Positions 5,806 to 63,474 of a stretch of DNA of 64,000 nucleotides are shown here, one piece after another. A program made the position numbers and the translations under genes. How positions within the stretch are numbered: position 1 is the first letter of the stretch; each line of letters opens with the position of its first letter. The notes under the pieces were generated by a model. That model saw only the letters and a program-made list of their open reading frames with translations, was not told the DNA's origin and searched no databases. Source of the stretch: Akkermansia muciniphila (lineage in GTDB: Bacteria > Verrucomicrobiota > Verrucomicrobiia > Verrucomicrobiales > Akkermansiaceae); NCBI GenBank assembly GCA_945874895.1, contig CAMCIC010000008.1:62001-126000 (forward strand), written 5' to 3'.

Positions 5806-5940
5806 TACTGTTGCAGCGGGCGGGAAATTACACCCGCCGCCCCCCGCATGGCAATCCTTTTTTTGACGGATTTTCATTTTCACCAACAACTACTTGGGAA
5901 AAGGCATTGCCGAAGTTCCCCCGATACGATAACAAACCGC

Positions 5941-15536: not shown

Positions 15537-15628
15537 CCAGCGCCACGTTGCGTTTGCCACTGCGCACTGACAAGCCCGAATCAATCGCGCGCCTCGATGT
15601 TTTCGGAAAGCATGATGCGATCGCTGCG

Positions 15629-15634
15629 TATGAT
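15629..15634 (+). promoter_or_regulatory. Candidate -10 box 6 nt before esterase start
   Basis: TATGAT matches the sigma70 -10 at 5 of 6 positions and ends exactly 6 nt before the ATG. No good -35 lies 16-18 bp upstream. The spacing repeats that of hom and pilT. Confidence 0.3.
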
Positions 15635-16584: not shown

Positions 16585-16613
16585 TTGCCGCAACATGACT
16601 GCCACCCTACAGT
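16585..16613 (+). promoter_or_regulatory. Candidate hom promoter, leaderless
   Basis: TTGCCG, a 17-bp spacer and TACAGT precede the GTG start of hom by exactly 6 nt. Transcription would begin at or within 1 nt of the start codon. No ribosome-binding site is present upstream. The start codon is independently fixed by protein homology. Confidence 0.5.
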
Positions 16614-16619
16614 CGCTGC

Positions 16620-17933
16620 GTGACATCGACCCCTTATGGCATCGGACTAGCAGGCTGCGGCACTGTCGGCACAGGCGTGATCCGCGCCCTGCAACGAAAC
16701 GGCGAACTCATCCGGCAGCGCTGCGGCGGCTCCATCGAAATGAGCGTCAAGCGCATCCTGGTGCGCGACCGCGACAAACCTCGACACGAGACAGTGGATG
16801 CATCGTTAATCACGACGGATTGGCAAACGCTGGTGGATGATCCTACAGTCCACATCGTGGTGGAACTCATCGGTGGCACCGGACTGGCGTTCGACATCGT
16901 CGCGCGCGCCCTCAGCTTACGCAAACCGGTGGTCACCGGCAACAAGGCGCTGCTGGCGGAGCGTGGTGCGGAGCTTTTCGCTCTGTCGAAACAGCACAAC
17001 ACGCCCATTCATTTCGAGGCCGCGGTAGCTGGGGGCATTCCCATCATCAAGACCGTGCAGGAAGCCTTCATCGGCAACCGCATCAAGGCGATGTGCGGCA
17101 TCATCAATGGCACCAGCAATTACATCTTGCAGCGGATGTCAGAGGCTAAGCTCGACTTCGCCACCGCCTTGCGGGAAGCACAGGATTTAGGCTATGCCGA
17201 GTCTGACCCCACCCTCGATGTGAACGGTTGGGATGCCGCGCACAAGGCGATTCTGTTAGCCACCCTCGCCTATGGTTTCCCGATTTCACCCGCGCTGGTT
17301 CATGTGGCGGGTATCGAGCAGGTCAAACCCATCGACATCGATTTCGCCCAACAACTGGGCTACGTGGTGAAACTTCTGGCTGTGATCCGCCAGCACGACG
17401 ATGAATCGATCGAATTGCGTCTGCAGCCTTCCTTTGTCAGCAAGCATCATATCCTCGCCTCGGTGAACGGTGTATTCAACGCCGTGGCCGTGCATGGTGA
17501 CGGCGTGGGAGAATCACTATTTTACGGTCGTGGTGCCGGTGAGGATCCCACTGCCTCCGCAGTAGTGGCCGACCTCGTCGAGGCCGCGCGCTCCCTGGCT
17601 CATAAACTGCCGCACCGTGGATTCCTGCCCTGGGGCAAGGAGGGTCGCTTGCTCCCGATCGAAGAAACGCGCACCGCGTATTACGTGCGCTTCGATGTTA
17701 CCGATCGACCCGGAGTTGTGGCGGAAATTGCGACCGTATTGGCGCAGCACCGCATTGGCATCAGCGGCACTCATTCCCCCGTTAATCCGGAAAACCCCGA
17801 TGCCGAATTCGTAGACATGGTCTTCCTGCTTCACAGTTGCCCCTTTGGCCTGCTGCAACAGGCGCTGCGCGAAATTGCCGCTCTCAACTGCGTCAACTCC
17901 GAGCCCGTGGTGTTCCGCATCGAACAAATTTGA
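16620..17933 (+). CDS. hom: Homoserine dehydrogenase with C-terminal ACT domain
   Basis: Hom reduces aspartate semialdehyde to homoserine, the branch point to threonine and methionine. The GTG start gives 437 residues. 'GIGLAGCGTVGTGV' near residue 7 is the NAD(P)-binding loop, 'TGNKALLAERG' and 'GGIPIIKTVQEA' belong to the cofactor domain, and 'GIINGTSNYIL' with 'GYAESDPTLDVNGWDAAHK' is the catalytic signature. An ACT domain near residues 350-430 begins 'YYVRFDVTDRPGVVAEIA', implying feedback control by an amino acid, usually threonine. A leaderless-type promoter lies immediately upstream. Confidence 0.96.
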   Translation: MTSTPYGIGLAGCGTVGTGVIRALQRNGELIRQRCGGSIEMSVKRILVRDRDKPRHETVDASLITTDWQTLVDDPTVHIVVELIGGTGLAFDIVARALSLRKPVVTGNKALLAERGAELFALSKQHNTPIHFEAAVAGGIPIIKTVQEAFIGNRIKAMCGIINGTSNYILQRMSEAKLDFATALREAQDLGYAESDPTLDVNGWDAAHKAILLATLAYGFPISPALVHVAGIEQVKPIDIDFAQQLGYVVKLLAVIRQHDDESIELRLQPSFVSKHHILASVNGVFNAVAVHGDGVGESLFYGRGAGEDPTASAVVADLVEAARSLAHKLPHRGFLPWGKEGRLLPIEETRTAYYVRFDVTDRPGVVAEIATVLAQHRIGISGTHSPVNPENPDAEFVDMVFLLHSCPFGLLQQALREIAALNCVNSEPVVFRIEQI

Positions 17934-24504: not shown

Positions 24505-24532
24505 TTGACAACGAGCCCGCGGCGTCTAGCTT
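24505..24532 (+). promoter_or_regulatory. Candidate promoter of metal-efflux operon, leaderless
   Basis: A perfect TTGACA, a 16-bp spacer and TAGCTT end exactly 6 nt before the GTG of the His-rich gene. The -10 matches consensus at 3 of 6 positions. No operator palindrome for a known metal regulator is apparent. Confidence 0.4.
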
Positions 24533-24538
24533 GGTAAT

Positions 24539-24868
24539 GTGTTCCGCGTAATACGCATTCTGATTCTGCTTCTCACATGGGTGGGGCTGAGTGCGCGCGC
24601 CGCAGATCTTCCCTCAAGAATCCATGAAAGCCATCAGGAAGTCTGCGAGCATCCTCACGAGCACGATCATGAGGATGATACCCCTTGTCAGGAAAGCCAT
24701 CACCACTGCCATTGCCAGAACTTGCCACCGCTGTTCTGCCTCCCTGAATTTCCCCTGCGTACCAACGCTTCCATCCTCTCCGTGAGCTCCGCGAAGCCAG
24801 AACGCACGCAGTGGGAGCTCCCTGACGACCCAGTCTATGATCGGGTAGTTCCGCCCATCATCAACTGA
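24539..24868 (+). CDS. Small His/Cys-rich secreted protein, first gene of metal-efflux operon
   Basis: The 109-residue product has a signal peptide ('RILILLLTWVGLSARA') and then a dense metal-ligand stretch near residues 35-60, including 'HEHDHEDD' and 'CQESHHHCHC'. The second half is Pro-rich. It starts with GTG and no ribosome-binding site. Its place at the head of an RND efflux operon suggests a periplasmic metal chaperone or buffer. I know no named family. Ligand composition fits Cu, Zn, Ni, Co or Cd, with no way to choose from sequence. Confidence 0.72.
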   Translation: MFRVIRILILLLTWVGLSARAADLPSRIHESHQEVCEHPHEHDHEDDTPCQESHHHCHCQNLPPLFCLPEFPLRTNASILSVSSAKPERTQWELPDDPVYDRVVPPIIN

Positions 24869-32722: not shown

Positions 32723-33403
32723 ATGAAATTTCTTCCCAAAGCCATCGTCGTCTTGCTGCTCAGCGTTATGACCATGAACGTCTGGTCAGAAGAGCTGGAG
32801 CATGGATTTCTGAACCTCGCCAACATGGTGCCGAATGCCGCAGCCTGCAAGGTCACGATCGATGGCAAAGACCTGATGCCAGGAGGTCTCAAGTCCATCC
32901 AATCGACCGGATGGTTCATCGTGCCCAAAGGCTTGCACCAACTCAGTTTGGAAATCGAGGGCTACAAGTCAGCCAAAGGCAGCGTTAACATCGATCCCGA
33001 CGAAACGGTCTTGTATGTGATTTTCCTCCAACAGATCGGAGAAAAAAAGGATGCCAATGGGAAGGAACGTCCGCCAGAGATTCGGATCAAGCGCTGCGCG
33101 CCGCAGCCCTACGAAAAGGGACACAAGCTCCAAGTCATGTCATTTTGTCCCGAGCCTGAGACTTTTCAAATTGGTTCGCAGCAGATCAATTTGGAGCTCT
33201 TTGGCACCCAAGACATGACCACATGGAACGGTGGTGCGTTCGACATCATGCAAAAAAACAAAGTCATTGGCGGCTGTCCTGACGCGCAGGAAAAAGGCGC
33301 TTACATTCTTCTGATCGGCAGCAATCACAAACGCACCTGCGCGGCACTTCTGGTGCGCAGCGAGAAGCAACAGTTGCCGCCTTGGATGAAAGACAAACGA
33401 TAA
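32723..33403 (+). CDS. Hypothetical secreted protein, member of adjacent pair
   Basis: I recognise no family. The ATG at 32723 begins a signal peptide ('KAIVVLLLSVMTMNVWS'), giving 226 residues. An N-terminal domain resembles a small PEGA-like beta fold ('VTIDGKDLMPGGLKSI', 'GLHQLSLEIEGYKSAKGSV'), in which a protein decorates lipoprotein or cell-wall surfaces. The rest is beta-rich with several cysteines. The next gene begins 3 nt after the stop and also encodes a secreted protein with a related 'NLTTQ..S' beta style, so the two probably work together. The 222-bp upstream spacer has no clear promoter. Confidence 0.68.
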   Translation: MKFLPKAIVVLLLSVMTMNVWSEELEHGFLNLANMVPNAAACKVTIDGKDLMPGGLKSIQSTGWFIVPKGLHQLSLEIEGYKSAKGSVNIDPDETVLYVIFLQQIGEKKDANGKERPPEIRIKRCAPQPYEKGHKLQVMSFCPEPETFQIGSQQINLELFGTQDMTTWNGGAFDIMQKNKVIGGCPDAQEKGAYILLIGSNHKRTCAALLVRSEKQQLPPWMKDKR

Positions 33404-38798: not shown

Positions 38799-38827
38799 TT
38801 GACTCCCGAATCAACATGATGCATCTT
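38799..38827 (+). promoter_or_regulatory. Candidate pabB promoter, leaderless
   Basis: TTGACT, a 17-bp spacer and CATCTT end 5 nt before the GTG start of pabB. The -10 is weak (3 of 6). The spacing matches other candidates in the window. Confidence 0.35.
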
Positions 38828-38832
38828 GCGGT

Positions 38833-40158
38833 GTGGTGAATTTAGATCCGCAACAGCCGAAAGCATGGCAGAAATACACGCCATGGGAAGTTGCCCAACG
38901 TTTGTCGCATCTGCCAGGGATCGTTTTTTTTGATTCATCGGGAAATACGTCGAACCAATCGAGACCAGCCATTTCTCTCATTGCAGCAGAACCGGAATCC
39001 CTCATTCGCGGGCAAATCGACTCACCCCATGATCAACAGCGATTACGGGACGCTTGGCAGTTGCATCGAAAAGAATCATTCGATTGCGGCTATCCCATGG
39101 GGGGGCTTTGCGGATGGATTGATTATGACGGATCGTTCACATTCGGTCATTACCCGCAGATGCTGATCTATCAGCACGAGCGGCAAGAATGGGATGAGAT
39201 CGGAAAATTGTCGACCATGCTCCATGATCAAGGACGCCTGGATCCCTGTAAGGTCGGTGATTTCTGCGCCACCATGGAGCGGGAGGAGTTCATGACTGCG
39301 GTCGAGCGCATCCGCGAATGGATCGCCGCTGGTGACATTTACCAAGTGAACCTGACCCAGCAGTTTGCGGCGCCGTGCGATTCCGAAGGTTCGCTTGCGG
39401 AGCTGTATGCCCTGCTTCGCCAACGATCTCCCGCTCCCATGGCGGTCTGGATGAAAATGGCAGGTAGGGAGATTTTAAGCTCCTCCCCTGAGACCTTTCT
39501 GCGCATCAGTGGCAGACAGATGGAAACCCGGCCCATCAAAGGTACCCGGCCGCGTTTTGCTAACGTGGATGATGACCGACGCTCCGCCTATGAGCTGCAA
39601 ACATCATCGAAGGAGATTGCTGAATTGGTCATGATCACGGACTTGCTGCGCAACGATTTGGGGCAGGTTTGTGAATTTGGCAGCGTGCGGGTGGATGAAA
39701 TGTTGCAACTGGAGACCTACGAGCAGGTTTTTCATCTCGTCTCCACTGTGCGCGGTGAAATGCGCCGCGATCTTGATGACATTGACGTATTGGCAGCCTG
39801 CTTCCCAGGCGGAAGCATCACCGGAGCACCCAAAAAGCGCGCATGTGAAATCATTGCCGCCTTGGAACCCGTGCCACGGGGACTCTACTGTGGTGCCATC
39901 GGATACCTCGGATATAACGGAGAGTCTCAGTTCAACATCGCCATCCGCACTCTGGTGCGCGAAAAAGGAATGCTGCACTATCACGTCGGCGCGGGGATCG
40001 TAGCCGATTCCCAAGCGGCGATGGAATATGAAGAAACTCTTCACAAGGCACGGGGAATCCAGTGGGCCTTATCGGATTGGCAGAATTTCGTTCAAAAAGA
40101 ATTGAACAAATCATGCGACCCGCTAGTTTCCGCACATGGATGCGACACCGCATGCTGA
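38833..40158 (+). CDS. pabB: Aminodeoxychorismate synthase component I
   Basis: PabB converts chorismate and glutamine-derived ammonia to 4-amino-4-deoxychorismate for folate. The 441-residue protein, GTG start, has the chorismate-binding signature: 'EREEFMTAVERIREWIAAGD', 'NLTQQF', 'SSSPETFLRI', 'RPIKGTRPR', 'CFPGGSITGAPKKRA' and 'GYLGYNGESQFNIAIRT'. The anthranilate synthase TrpE is a close paralogue; the chorismate-binding signature 'PIKGT' with Lys, and the short N-terminal part, favour PabB. No pabA lies in the window. Its 3' end overlaps the next gene start by 23 nt. Confidence 0.88.
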   Translation: MVNLDPQQPKAWQKYTPWEVAQRLSHLPGIVFFDSSGNTSNQSRPAISLIAAEPESLIRGQIDSPHDQQRLRDAWQLHRKESFDCGYPMGGLCGWIDYDGSFTFGHYPQMLIYQHERQEWDEIGKLSTMLHDQGRLDPCKVGDFCATMEREEFMTAVERIREWIAAGDIYQVNLTQQFAAPCDSEGSLAELYALLRQRSPAPMAVWMKMAGREILSSSPETFLRISGRQMETRPIKGTRPRFANVDDDRRSAYELQTSSKEIAELVMITDLLRNDLGQVCEFGSVRVDEMLQLETYEQVFHLVSTVRGEMRRDLDDIDVLAACFPGGSITGAPKKRACEIIAALEPVPRGLYCGAIGYLGYNGESQFNIAIRTLVREKGMLHYHVGAGIVADSQAAMEYEETLHKARGIQWALSDWQNFVQKELNKSCDPLVSAHGCDTAC

Positions 40159-41197: not shown

Positions 41198-42157
41198 TCA
41201 GAGATCTGCATTCCGATGATTTCCCGCCACATCTTGACCTGAACAAACGATGCAGCGCTCGAGTCGGGTCTCTTCCTGAATGTGTGAGTCTCGCCAGATG
41301 ACGGAATCGTGAATCACCGCGCCCGCAGCGATGACGGCATTGGCACCAATGCAACTTCTCTCGATGTTTGCTCGGTCGGCAATTTGCGCCGTGGGATGAA
41401 TCACGTTTCCTCGCATCAGGTGTTGATGGGCGTTCAGGTAGCTTTCGCGCTCGCCCAAGTCCCACCAGTCTCCCTCATCGATGACCACGCATCCAAGGCG
41501 TTGATCCTTCGCCAATCGAAGAAATGCTGGAATAACAGATGCGATGTTTTCATCGGGCAGAAACTCTAACAACTCAGAATTCATGCAGTAGATTCCGCTG
41601 AAAACATGCGTGCCCTCGGCGCGACCAAGCCTGTTACGAATATCAGTGACCTTGCCGTCCTGCCAAGCAATATGGCGGGCATCTCCTTGCGAGCGCAAGG
41701 CGAGAGTCACAGGCAAACCAGATGCCTGATGAACCTCTACCAACTTCTGTAGAGGCATCGTCGAAAAAATATCTCCATTGTGCACCAGCACCTCTTCTTG
41801 GCCCATCCAGTTCCGCAAGTTGCGCAGACCACCTCCCGTCTCGAGCAAAATCGGCTCGTGAAACAAGCGAATTGTAGAATCACGCCAATGGCCGAATTCC
41901 ACCGACTCACCGTTTTCGCCGGTTTCTGCCAGCTTCTGCCAGTCCTCACAATTCCAACCCCACCATGGATCCTTCCACATTTGAGGCAAATGATGGGTAT
42001 TCACGGCGAAGTCCGTGCACCCCACATCACGGCAACTCTGCCAAGCGTAATGAATCAAAGGTTGATTCACCAGTGGCACCAATGGTTTGGGCAACCGATG
42101 GGTCAAAGGTTGCAGCCTCGTCCCCAAACCCGCGCCCAGTAAAAAAGCCTTCGTCAC
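41198..42157 (-). CDS. Sugar-1-phosphate nucleotidyltransferase
   Basis: The GTG at 42157 begins the conserved nucleotide-binding sequence 'AFLLGAGLGTRLQPLTHRLP', giving 319 residues. 'KPLVPLVNQPLIHY' and 'VHNGDIF' are NTP_transferase motifs. The C-terminal part has left-handed beta-helix hexapeptide features ('IGANAVIAAGAVIHDSVIW'). This fits mannose-1-phosphate guanylyltransferase or N-acetylmuramate/ glucose-1-phosphate uridylyl-type enzymes (MurU-like). The sugar is not assignable. The track adds 35 upstream codons. A candidate promoter ends 6 nt before the GTG. Confidence 0.83.
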   Translation of the reverse strand: MTKAFLLGAGLGTRLQPLTHRLPKPLVPLVNQPLIHYAWQSCRDVGCTDFAVNTHHLPQMWKDPWWGWNCEDWQKLAETGENGESVEFGHWRDSTIRLFHEPILLETGGGLRNLRNWMGQEEVLVHNGDIFSTMPLQKLVEVHQASGLPVTLALRSQGDARHIAWQDGKVTDIRNRLGRAEGTHVFSGIYCMNSELLEFLPDENIASVIPAFLRLAKDQRLGCVVIDEGDWWDLGERESYLNAHQHLMRGNVIHPTAQIADRANIERSCIGANAVIAAGAVIHDSVIWRDSHIQEETRLERCIVCSGQDVAGNHRNADL

Positions 42158-42163
42158 GCAGTG

Positions 42164-42192
42164 GTTATGCCGATTCACAACGACGATGGCGA
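42164..42192 (-). promoter_or_regulatory. Candidate nucleotidyltransferase promoter, leaderless
   Basis: On the minus strand TCGCCA, a 17-bp spacer and CATAAC end 6 nt before the GTG start. Each hexamer matches the sigma70 consensus at 4 of 6 positions. The start is fixed by homology, so the short distance is informative. Confidence 0.4.
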
Positions 42193-47222: not shown

Positions 47223-47575
47223 TCCGCCGCAATGATCTTGCACGACGGGCACTCGCCGATGAGTGGCAGGACGTGCGGCGTCGAATCGATCTGCCCACAC
47301 GCCTCAGCGATCACATCCGCGGCAACCGCGGTCTATGGTTTGCCGGTTCGGCCGCTCTCGGCCTCGTGGCCAGTTCATGGTTCCGCAAAAAAGCTCCATC
47401 CCACCCGAGTGTCACTCCTCCTCGCAAAAGCCTGATCGGCTTGGTTCTCACAAGCGCCTTCACTCTCGCCAAACCCGCGATCAAATCTTGGCTGTGGAGC
47501 GAATTTCAAAAACGCTATCTGTCTCGACAGCCCCTCTCCCCCCGCACAGGCGGCATACGCCATTTCCAAGATTGA
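47183..47575 (+). CDS. YqjK-like small membrane-associated protein
   Basis: The 130-residue protein starts at the ATG at 47183; the track start at 46997 is an upstream internal codon. It has a charged helical N-terminus ('NDLARRALADEWQDVRRRI') and weak hydrophobic segments ('GLWFAGSAALGLVASSWF' and 'LIGLVLTSAFTLA'). It completes the yqjDEK-like trio by position. Sequence similarity to YqjK itself is not certain. Confidence 0.62.
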   Translation: MDAKPQNAELEELIRRNDLARRALADEWQDVRRRIDLPTRLSDHIRGNRGLWFAGSAALGLVASSWFRKKAPSHPSVTPPRKSLIGLVLTSAFTLAKPAIKSWLWSEFQKRYLSRQPLSPRTGGIRHFQD

Positions 47576-47599
47576 TTTTTCCCCATCGAACTCTACAAA
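47572..47599 (+). promoter_or_regulatory. Candidate pilT promoter, leaderless
   Basis: TTGATT, a 16-bp spacer and TACAAA end exactly 6 nt before the pilT ATG. The -35 overlaps the stop of the preceding gene. No ribosome-binding site is present. Confidence 0.5.
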
Positions 47600-55554: not shown

Positions 55555-56367
55555 TTACTCGCCTTGCGGCACAGGCATGGGGAATCCGCCAGGGGCAGGC
55601 GCGGGAGCATCTTCGATGCCCACCAATTCCAATTCAAAAATCAACGCGCTATTGGGTCCCAGATCTGCGCTACCACGTTGTTCACCGTAAGCGAGCTCGG
55701 CGGGGATGAACAGTTTCCATTTAGCGCCAATCGGCATGGTGGTGATGGCTTCTTTGAATCCGGGGATGACCTGAAGAGTCATCGGCACGGGCTTGCCTTC
55801 GGGTGATTTATCGAACTCGGTGCCATCGATGAGAGTGCCGCGATAGTTCACAAGAAACTGCTTGTTGTCTTCCGCACCTTCTTTCGCGGGTTCGTATTTT
55901 TTATCGCCACCCTTGGTCAGTACTTCATACTGGAGTCCACTCTTGGTAGTGGTGACTTCCTTGCGTTTGCCGTTCTCGGCCAGAAAAGCCTTACCCGCAG
56001 CGAGATTCTTAGTGGACAACTCCTTTTCACGGGATTCCATCAAGGACTGCAATGCCATCATCGCAGTCTGGATGTCTTTCTCAGCAACTTCAGGTTCTTT
56101 GCCCGCCATCGCACTCATGAATCCTTTGACAAACTCGGCACTGTCAATGTCCGCCGAGTTGATCCCGAAACGACCGACTTGTTGAGCGAACTGACGACCG
56201 TTTTGAAAACCGAAACCGTAGGAGGTATTTTTTTTCACTTGGTCAGGTGCCATAGCAGGAGCAGCTGGTGCGGCAGGAGCCGTTGCGGGTGCTGCGGGTG
56301 CATCTTGAGCATTGAGCAGCATGGAAGTAGCGAGCATCAGCGCGCCGGTGATAGGGAATGACTTCAT
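55555..56367 (-). CDS. Secreted FKBP-type peptidyl-prolyl isomerase
   Basis: The ATG at 56367 starts a signal peptide ('ITGALMLATSMLLNAQ'), giving 270 residues. A Pro/Ala-rich linker of about 20 residues follows, then a helical FkpA-like dimerisation domain (~45-135) and an FKBP domain (~150-255: 'VNYRGTLIDGTEFDKS', 'VIPGFKEAITTMPIGAKWKL', 'FIPAELAYGEQ', 'LIFELELVGI'). This is the FkpA/Mip architecture, a periplasmic folding helper. The C-terminus is again Pro-rich. The track start is 30 codons too far upstream. Confidence 0.92.
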   Translation of the reverse strand: MKSFPITGALMLATSMLLNAQDAPAAPATAPAAPAAPAMAPDQVKKNTSYGFGFQNGRQFAQQVGRFGINSADIDSAEFVKGFMSAMAGKEPEVAEKDIQTAMMALQSLMESREKELSTKNLAAGKAFLAENGKRKEVTTTKSGLQYEVLTKGGDKKYEPAKEGAEDNKQFLVNYRGTLIDGTEFDKSPEGKPVPMTLQVIPGFKEAITTMPIGAKWKLFIPAELAYGEQRGSADLGPNSALIFELELVGIEDAPAPAPGGFPMPVPQGE

Positions 56368-61501: not shown

Positions 61502-61858
61502 TTAGAATTGGAGACCGGCTTCCCGGGCGGCTTCGGCAAGAGCTTTCACTTTGCCATGATAGATGTGACCGCCACGGTCGAAGACCACGGCACCGATGTT
61601 GGCAGCCTTAGCGCGCTCGGCGATCAAGGCGCCGATGTTGCGGGCGCATTCGACGTTGGCCTGGGCCTTCTCGGATGCCTTGTCCAAAGTGGACGCGGAA
61701 ACCAAAGTGCGGCGGGCAACATCGTCGATGATTTGAGCGTAAACGTGCTGGTTGGAGAAATACACAGCGAGGCGTGGGCGACTGGCGGTGCCAGTTACCT
61801 TGCGGCGAATGCGCTTGTGAACGCGCTGCCGGATTTCTTTGCGATTGATCGTACTCAT
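61502..61858 (-). CDS. rplR: 50S ribosomal protein L18
   Basis: L18 binds 5S rRNA in the central protuberance. The 118-residue protein shows '[20 protein letters not shown]', '[15 protein letters not shown]' and '[20 protein letters not shown]', all typical. It sits between rplF and rpsE, 35 and 14 nt away. Confidence 0.96.
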
Positions 61859-61893
61859 GTAATGAAAAATGTGTTAGAGTGAATGACGAATGG

Positions 61894-62436
61894 TTATTTG
61901 CCGACGGATTTACCTTCCTTGCGACGAACATGTTCGCCCACGTAACGGACGCCTTTGCCTTTGTAGGGCTCAGGCGGATAGTATCCGCGAACCTCAGCAG
62001 CAAATTGACCGACCATCTGTTTGTCGATCCCTTCCACCTTGATCTTGGTGTTATCCGTAACAGTAACGGTGAGACCATCGGGGATGGGATGAAGCAGTGG
62101 GTGAGAGCGACCGAGCGAAAGATCGAGGTCCTTCCCTTTGACCGCAGCACGGAAACCCACGCCTTGAATTTCCAAGTCCTTGACGAAACCTTTGGAGACT
62201 CCGTTGATCATGTTGTTAACGATCGCACGAGCGGTGCCGTGGAGGGCGCGCAACTGGCGCGAGGTCTCCGAGGTCCGGGTTACGGTCAACTTGTTGTCCT
62301 CGTTGCTCAGCTCAATACCAGCTGGCAAGGTGAAAGCGAGTTTGCCTTTCGGACCCTCGACGGTAACAACGCCACCTTCGTTCTTCACGGTGACTTTTTC
62401 TGGCAATGTGATAGGTTTAACTCCTACGCGTGACAT
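61894..62436 (-). CDS. rplF: 50S ribosomal protein L6
   Basis: L6 sits near the sarcin-ricin loop. The 180-residue protein starts 'SRVGVKPITLPEKVTV', has 'GPKGKLAF' and ends with the signature 'PEPYKGKGVRYVGEHVRRKEG'. Standard length and position. Confidence 0.97.
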   Translation of the reverse strand: MSRVGVKPITLPEKVTVKNEGGVVTVEGPKGKLAFTLPAGIELSNEDNKLTVTRTSETSRQLRALHGTARAIVNNMINGVSKGFVKDLEIQGVGFRAAVKGKDLDLSLGRSHPLLHPIPDGLTVTVTDNTKIKVEGIDKQMVGQFAAEVRGYYPPEPYKGKGVRYVGEHVRRKEGKSVGK

Positions 62437-62464
62437 AAATGTATGTAGTTAGTGGGTTAGAGGA

Positions 62465-62863
62465 TTACCAGACGATGGCGAGTAGTTCTCCGCCGAGTTT
62501 TTCACGCTTGGCGCGAGCTCCGGTCATCACACCTTTCGAAGTCGAAAGGATGGAGATACCCAGGCCGGACATGACGCGTGGAATTTCGTCGGAACCAACA
62601 TAGTTGCGGCGGCCAGGCTTGGAGACGCGCTTGAGTCCGGTGAGGACAGGGCGGCCATCAACAAACTTGCCTTTGACTTTCAGGGTGGGGAATCCGTCGG
62701 TAGTGACGACTTCATAGCTCCAGACGTAGCCCTCCTCCTGGAGGATTTTGGCGATATCTGCTTTGATGCGCGAGTAAGGCGCGGTGAAGACTTCGTTGCC
62801 GGCACGGCTTGCATTGCTGAAGCGTGTCAAGAAGTCGGAAATGGGATCGGAAAGAACGGCCAT
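62465..62863 (-). CDS. rpsH: 30S ribosomal protein S8
   Basis: S8 organises the 16S central domain; in E. coli it also represses the spc operon by binding near the rplE start. The 132-residue protein has 'DPISDFLTRFSNASRAGNE', and the C-terminal 'LGISILSTSKGVMTGARAK' signature. It starts 20 nt after rplE, with no rpsN (S14) between them. Confidence 0.97.
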   Translation of the reverse strand: MAVLSDPISDFLTRFSNASRAGNEVFTAPYSRIKADIAKILQEEGYVWSYEVVTTDGFPTLKVKGKFVDGRPVLTGLKRVSKPGRRNYVGSDEIPRVMSGLGISILSTSKGVMTGARAKREKLGGELLAIVW

Positions 62864-62883
62864 AAAAAGTTTCTGGTAAAATG

Positions 62884-63474
62884 TTAGGCTTGGGCTGCTT
62901 CAGGGGTTTCGCTATCGGATTCACGCTTATTTTCGCGGAATGGCATGCCCAAAGCTTTGAGCAATTCGAAGCCTTCTTTATCAGTCGGGGCAGAAGTGAC
63001 GAAAATCAGGTCAAAACCAATGTTGCGTTTGATTTGATCGATTTCAATTTCTGGGAAAATCGATTGATCGGGCACTCCCATCGCGTAGTTGCCACGTCCA
63101 TCGAAAGACTTGTAGGGAATACCACGGAAGTCGCGGATGTTCGGAGCGGTGATGTTGATGAAGCGATCGAGGAACTCCCACATGCGGGTTCCGCGCAGAG
63201 TAACGCGAGCACCGAGGGGCTCATCAGCGCGCAATTTAAAGTTCGCCACAGCTTTGCGGGAAAACGTGATCGATGGCTTCTGGCCAGTGATTTTGGCGAT
63301 TTCGTTCACGGCATCCTCTACCGCCAGTTTGCGGTCAGGGGCTTTGCCCATGCAGGATGTCACCACGATTTTTTCGAGGCGAGGAACAGCATTCGGGTTG
63401 GTGTAACCCAATTTCTCCTTGAGAGCCGGTATGGCTTTCTCGCGGTAGTGTTGTAGTAGTCTTGGTGTGCTCAT
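62884..63474 (-). CDS. rplE: 50S ribosomal protein L5
   Basis: L5 binds 5S rRNA. The 196-residue protein has 'NPNAVPRLEKIVVTSCMG', 'RGTRMWEFLDRFINITAPN', 'FRGIPYKSFDGRGNYAMGV' and 'FVTSAPTDKEGFELLKALGM'. It carries a C-terminal polar extension of about 15 residues ('RESDSETPEAAQA') beyond the usual 180. The 93-nt spacer before it holds a small ORF and paired segments. Confidence 0.96.
   Translation of the reverse strand: MSTPRLLQHYREKAIPALKEKLGYTNPNAVPRLEKIVVTSCMGKAPDRKLAVEDAVNEIAKITGQKPSITFSRKAVANFKLRADEPLGARVTLRGTRMWEFLDRFINITAPNIRDFRGIPYKSFDGRGNYAMGVPDQSIFPEIEIDQIKRNIGFDLIFVTSAPTDKEGFELLKALGMPFRENKRESDSETPEAAQA

Follow-up and report, generated by a model that had tools for sequence, protein, structure and literature searches.

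Leaderless gene expression has been studied mostly in actinobacteria, Deinococcus and archaea. Zheng et al. (2011) defined bacterial leaderless genes by a TANNNT element about 12 bp upstream of the start codon, in Actinobacteria and Deinococcus–Thermus, and Verrucomicrobia are unnamed in the main text of that paper (PMC3160421). Within the family considered here, Ettwiller et al. (2016) used Cappable-seq to map 886 high-confidence start sites in Akkermansia muciniphila, 10% of them on annotated start codons (PMC4782308). The side claim in an initial annotation of the DNA studied here, that this lineage lacks any such description, is thus wrong at the family level. In its accessible part, PMC10783764 places Akkermansia among organisms that are scarce in Shine–Dalgarno (SD) sequences but have an intact CCUCC, and that part draws no relation between SD scarcity and promoter position, unlike the present analysis. 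Leaderless GUG starts are poorly used in E. coli but efficiently in Mycobacterium and Streptomyces (PMC9031893).

We analysed a stretch of 64,000 nt (the window; positions 62,001–126,000 of contig C8) from a metagenome-assembled genome (MAG) of 2.92 Mb in 26 contigs, which lacks a 16S gene. The nearest named relatives of its homoserine dehydrogenase gene, hom, come from Akkermansiaceae MAGs (81–88% amino-acid identity), followed by Haloferula and Luteolibacter, with Rubritalea more distant; the source is an uncultured relative of the gut bacterium Akkermansia (Verrucomicrobiota). The title Akkermansia muciniphila on some close hom records looks like a mis-label, because hom of an Akkermansia-like genus (g3) shares just 52–56% identity. 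The system described below resembles the leaderless transcripts of A. muciniphila in family, in start sites on start codons and in the −10 and −35 logos found in all species analysed there (PMC4782308). That set is experimental, from a gut species and without per-gene conservation, whereas ours is predicted from the sequence of an uncultured relative, shows a stronger signal and is conserved at the level of orthologues. The phenomenon had already been measured in the family, which reduces the novelty; the gain lies in the conservation and the numbers.

The layout is clearest at hom, where the string TTGCCG-17-TACAGT-6-GTG described by the initial annotation is exact at 16585–16622 (Table 1). 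An in-frame stop lies at −24, and from there to the conserved N-terminus GTG 16620 is the sole ATG, GTG or TTG start. With starts fixed by homology, a two-box promoter match (described below) at −14 to −11 was present in 32 of 76 hom orthologues, against 2.4 expected. In genus g3, TTGCG and CATAAT are kept but the −10 element begins at −18, predicting a leader of about 6 nt; the leader length of orthologous hom would thus have changed from about 0 to about 6 nt inside one family. Most hom upstream regions outside Akkermansiaceae did not have the layout, and several carried an SD-like AAGGAG or GGAG.

Table 1. Promoter elements and genes in the window (positions count from its first nucleotide; offsets are relative to the start codon).
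Feature	Positions	Strand	Evidence
hom −35 element TTGCCG	16585..16590	+	TTG at −38 to −33 in 51/76 orthologues vs 10.6 expected
hom −10 element TACAGT, starts at −12	16608..16613	+	YANNNT at −14 to −11 in 49/76 orthologues, 6.1 expected
hom discriminator, 6 nt, no room for leader or SD	16614..16619	+	C at −1 in 82% of non-redundant orthologues
hom, homoserine dehydrogenase, GTG at predicted transcription start	16620..17933	+	Pfam PF00742/PF03447; GTG in 60/76 orthologues
pabB-like promoter TTGACT-17-CATCTT, 5 nt before GTG 38833	38799..38827	+	LLR 7.15, p=0.002; 12/28 orthologues vs 1.4 expected
pabB-like gene, chorismate-binding enzyme	38833..40158	+	PF00425
His-rich gene promoter TTGACA-16-TAGCTT, 6 nt before GTG 24539	24505..24532	+	LLR 7.39, p=0.002
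His-rich small protein, genus-restricted, without Pfam family	24539..24868	+	
Nucleotidyltransferase promoter TCGCCA-17-CATAAC, 6 nt before GTG 42157	42164..42192	−	p=0.022; 9/28 orthologues vs 1.2 expected
Nucleotidyltransferase gene, homology from GTG 42157	41199..42157	−	PF00483
Additional candidate ttgccg-17-taacaa before GTG 5941 (adenylosuccinate-lyase family, PF00206/PF10397)	5907..5935	+	p=0.010, this sequence alone
Additional candidate ttgccg-16-aacgat before ATG 33407	33374..33401	+	p=0.002, this sequence alone
Additional candidate ttgtca-17-caacgt before ATG 15536	15545..15573	−	p=0.002, this sequence alone
pilT promoter TTGATT-16-TACAAA, rejected	47572..47599	+	TTGATT includes TGA stop of gene before
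Esterase −10 TATGAT, rejected	15629..15634	+	two-box model

The initial annotation had proposed a genome-wide search for positional enrichment of the −10 element, with shuffled sequence and operon-internal genes for comparison. Our test covered 1.57 of the 2.92 Mb, taken in stretches that include the window, with 1,223 genes called by codon statistics so that the choice of start was blind to any upstream signal. First genes were those divergent from, or more than 120 nt away from, the preceding gene (n = 577), and operon-internal genes formed the comparison set (n = 318). Before first genes, TANNNT occurred 28 times at −12 and 20 times at −14, against about 5 per other position, and TTGNCN 18 times at −35 and 19 times at −34, against about 5 elsewhere. 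Neither word peaked in the per-position counts for internal genes. TANNNT thus has its centre some 12 bp upstream of the start codon and exceeds dinucleotide shuffles, as in TA-led genes (PMC3160421), with the −10 element of hom at that same distance; unlike in that study, a −35 box is resolved too and the genome has no coexisting SD class.

Single-column base frequencies gave hints only, and two-box scoring was required. An expectation–maximization (EM) model, given weak TANNNT and TTGNCN seeds with flat priors on spacer and position, learned TTG(C/A)C(A) and YANNNT with a spacer of 16–17; its positions were most frequent at −12 and broke off abruptly once −11 was passed. When it was trained on one half of the genes and scored on the other, the best match had its −10 start at −18 to −11 in 144 of 577 first genes (25.0%), compared with 7.9% in dinucleotide shuffles and 9.7% in internal genes, the absolute fractions hinging on a home-made gene caller and a home-made model. 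At −12 alone there were 34 held-out matches before first genes, against 5.0 in shuffles. A slight excess at −12 was also seen in internal genes (9/318), some of which may be true first genes. Raw counts gave the same spacing independently of any model: TTG stood at a spacer of 16 or 17 in 51 of the 138 YANNNT words found at −14 to −11 before first genes (20 at 16, 31 at 17 and about 4 at any other spacer). A −35 TTGNNN and a −10 YANNNT, separated within the 16–18 bp range, are those of sigma-70-type promoters. The positional peak predicted by the initial annotation is therefore present at −12, and is accompanied by a separate −35 peak at −35/−34; E. coli lacks it, and internal genes show little or nothing of it.

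Could this pattern have arisen by chance, either from degenerate hexamers that the eye selects where intergenic DNA is richer in AT, or from in-frame TAA and TAG stops mimicking TANNNT at −12? A position-blind scan of 10–30 kb with a generic consensus found 8 promoters against 10.1 expected, and 18 of the 28 TANNNT words at −12 do begin with TAA or TAG, which are in-frame stops in that phase and swell the TANNNT count. Yet the non-stop TAYNNT also peaks, at −14 (11) and −12 (10), against about 3; stop codons cannot yield a −35 peak or a 16–17 spacer; the peak is missing from dinucleotide shuffles, internal genes and E. coli; and the promoters are conserved among orthologues. We consider chance extremely improbable and refuted as a general account, and the promoters are revealed solely by their position relative to the start codon, not by a blind scan.

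Controls from other bacteria were run through the same pipeline. E. coli K-12 (250 kb, same gene caller) had no promoter excess at these positions and a strong SD peak. Plasmids of Deinococcus deserti, our leaderless control, shared the TANNNT peak at −12 (10/128) but differed in two respects: an SD peak stands out clearly among their other genes, and the model found no −35 match of the TTGCCA type; the two-box model, trained on this MAG, is unsuited to D. deserti, and the control there rests on the TANNNT counts. EM applied to internal genes, or to the E. coli and D. deserti controls, settled on different motifs (an SD-like CAGGAG in both controls), and for this reason we did not read the mixture weights as fractions of genes.

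All six strings listed by the initial annotation, including that of hom, are present in the window. The layout was borne out at the nucleotidyltransferase, pabB-like and His-rich genes by promoter score and orthologue conservation (Table 1): TTCGCCA with CATA or similar is conserved in three congeners at the nucleotidyltransferase, and TTGACA with a match at −13/−12 is kept in both congeneric orthologues of the His-rich gene (2/2). For the other two genes, chance remains the explanation. The pilT string scored 3.53 at its own site and was matched in 1 of 29 orthologues, against 1.4 expected, and the two-box model finds no site at the TATGAT of the esterase; these two of the six showcase genes, which count in favour of chance, should be dropped. 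The FKBP gene (55555–56367), where a −10 element had also been proposed, scored marginally at −18 (p=0.042). The His-rich protein has a hydrophobic N-terminus and is confined to a single genus, with 3 of the 40 family genomes encoding it; it is possibly a secreted metal-handling peptide. At the nucleotidyltransferase, coding potential alone chose an upstream ATG (42247), whereas homology gives GTG 42157. This is the kind of start error that arises without a −10 model; the annotation of such genes is likely to be wrong without one, and gene-start prediction in Verrucomicrobiota should include it.

The initial annotation also pointed to a missing SD and to over-represented GTG starts. The first is true of the genes listed but is not diagnostic: in the 1.57 Mb, SD words preceded 8.0% of first genes and 8.2% of internal genes, compared with 8.6% and 9.0% in the respective shuffles, and in the family loci they were likewise no higher than at shuffle level. 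Because first and internal genes are both at shuffle level, lack of an SD marks no leaderless genes, and this property of TA-led leaderless genes, although found here, does not discriminate. The 16S tails of five family genomes (that of the source MAG being missing) retain CACCTCCTTTC. The genome thus resembles the SD-scarce organisms of PMC10783764, as far as the accessible part describes them, in having no SD enrichment, with CCUCC kept in the five family members checked. Over-representation of GTG was slight and weak in the MAG (18% versus 11%, p=0.10); at leaderless-like genes of the family loci without hom it was 25% versus 11% (p=0.003, or p=0.08 with unambiguous starts). GTG was set aside as a mark of leaderless genes, its enrichment being weak. 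C at −1 was likewise rejected as a transcription-start signature and is instead start-codon context, because the preference is no weaker in internal genes (57%). Internal genes share a Y-C|ATG|A context (Y at −2 in 73%, C at −1 in 57%, A at +4 in 59%). They lack an SD, and their G content is down to about 0.15–0.2 over −20 to −5, for example in the minus-strand operon at 61502–63474 of the window.

These features bear on a second alternative, that the promoters are real but that start-site choice or upstream promoters give short leaders (3–15 nt or more) with a non-SD ribosome signal, few mRNAs being truly leaderless. Since all genes, internal ones included, have Y-C before the start and no SD, there must be a way of initiating on leadered mRNAs other than by SD pairing, and leadered cistrons would appear from their sequence to use a non-SD mode of start recognition. 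The promoter matches also reach −18, and the hom −10 element lies there in the Akkermansia-like genus. Against this stand the sharpest maximum at −12, where a 6-nt discriminator sets +1 on the start codon, the steep drop in match density upstream of −18, and the A. muciniphila start sites that fall on start codons (10%; PMC4782308). In a scan to −150 with a model trained on the very genes scanned, the excess promoter density per 1,000 genes was 45 at −14 to −11, 29 at −18 to −15 and at most 7, about six-fold lower than at −14 to −11, from −19 upstream. By the counts of that scan, some 170 of about 337 excess matches within 100 nt upstream fall within the range of 0–6-nt leaders. We regard predominantly leadered mRNAs as improbable.

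Ordinary sigma-70-type promoters, placed so as to give leaderless or ultra-short-leader mRNAs, are very probably the best explanation. The observed promoter position, spacing, enrichment and orthologue conservation argue for the leaderless reading offered by the initial annotation; just where transcription begins, and by which route the mRNAs are translated, we infer. The promoters would combine a TTGCCA-like −35 element and a YANNNT −10 element across a spacer of 16–17, the −10 element ending about 5–12 nt before the start codon of a first gene. RNA polymerase would start on the start codon itself at hom and at the nucleotidyltransferase, pabB-like and His-rich genes, and up to about 6 nt before the codon at other first genes; the many matches at −18 to −15, implying leaders of 3–6 nt, speak against strict leaderlessness. 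The resulting mRNAs, leaderless or with leaders of 1–6 nt, would need a ribosome start without SD pairing, probably via the 5′-end/70S route known for leaderless mRNAs. If so, the conserved GUG of hom would add Akkermansiaceae to the efficient users of leaderless GUG starts, alongside Mycobacterium and Streptomyces.

The signal extends beyond this MAG. Among the flanking genes of 80 family loci, with hom removed, matches at −18 to −11 preceded 20.0% against 6.8%, and at −12 there were 36 against 4.3. An Akkermansia-like genome (2.65 Mb) had a smaller excess (14.7% versus 7.9%). For non-gut Akkermansiaceae we give roughly even chances to a broader proposal: that starts with 0–6-nt leaders are the commonest single promoter arrangement of first genes, in genomes without SD use though relatives keep the anti-SD, and that GUG is an efficient leaderless start, of which hom is a conserved example. 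The analysis would extend leaderless expression to conserved core genes of an environmental bacterial family, with named genes and exact bases given, and bacteria that make no use of SD signals yet keep an intact anti-SD are useful for asking how ribosomes pick starts. Near-leaderless promoters may be older than Akkermansiaceae, because one genome from another family of the same class has both a promoter excess (15.0% versus 4.3% at −18 to −11) and C at −1; its GC content is 63%.
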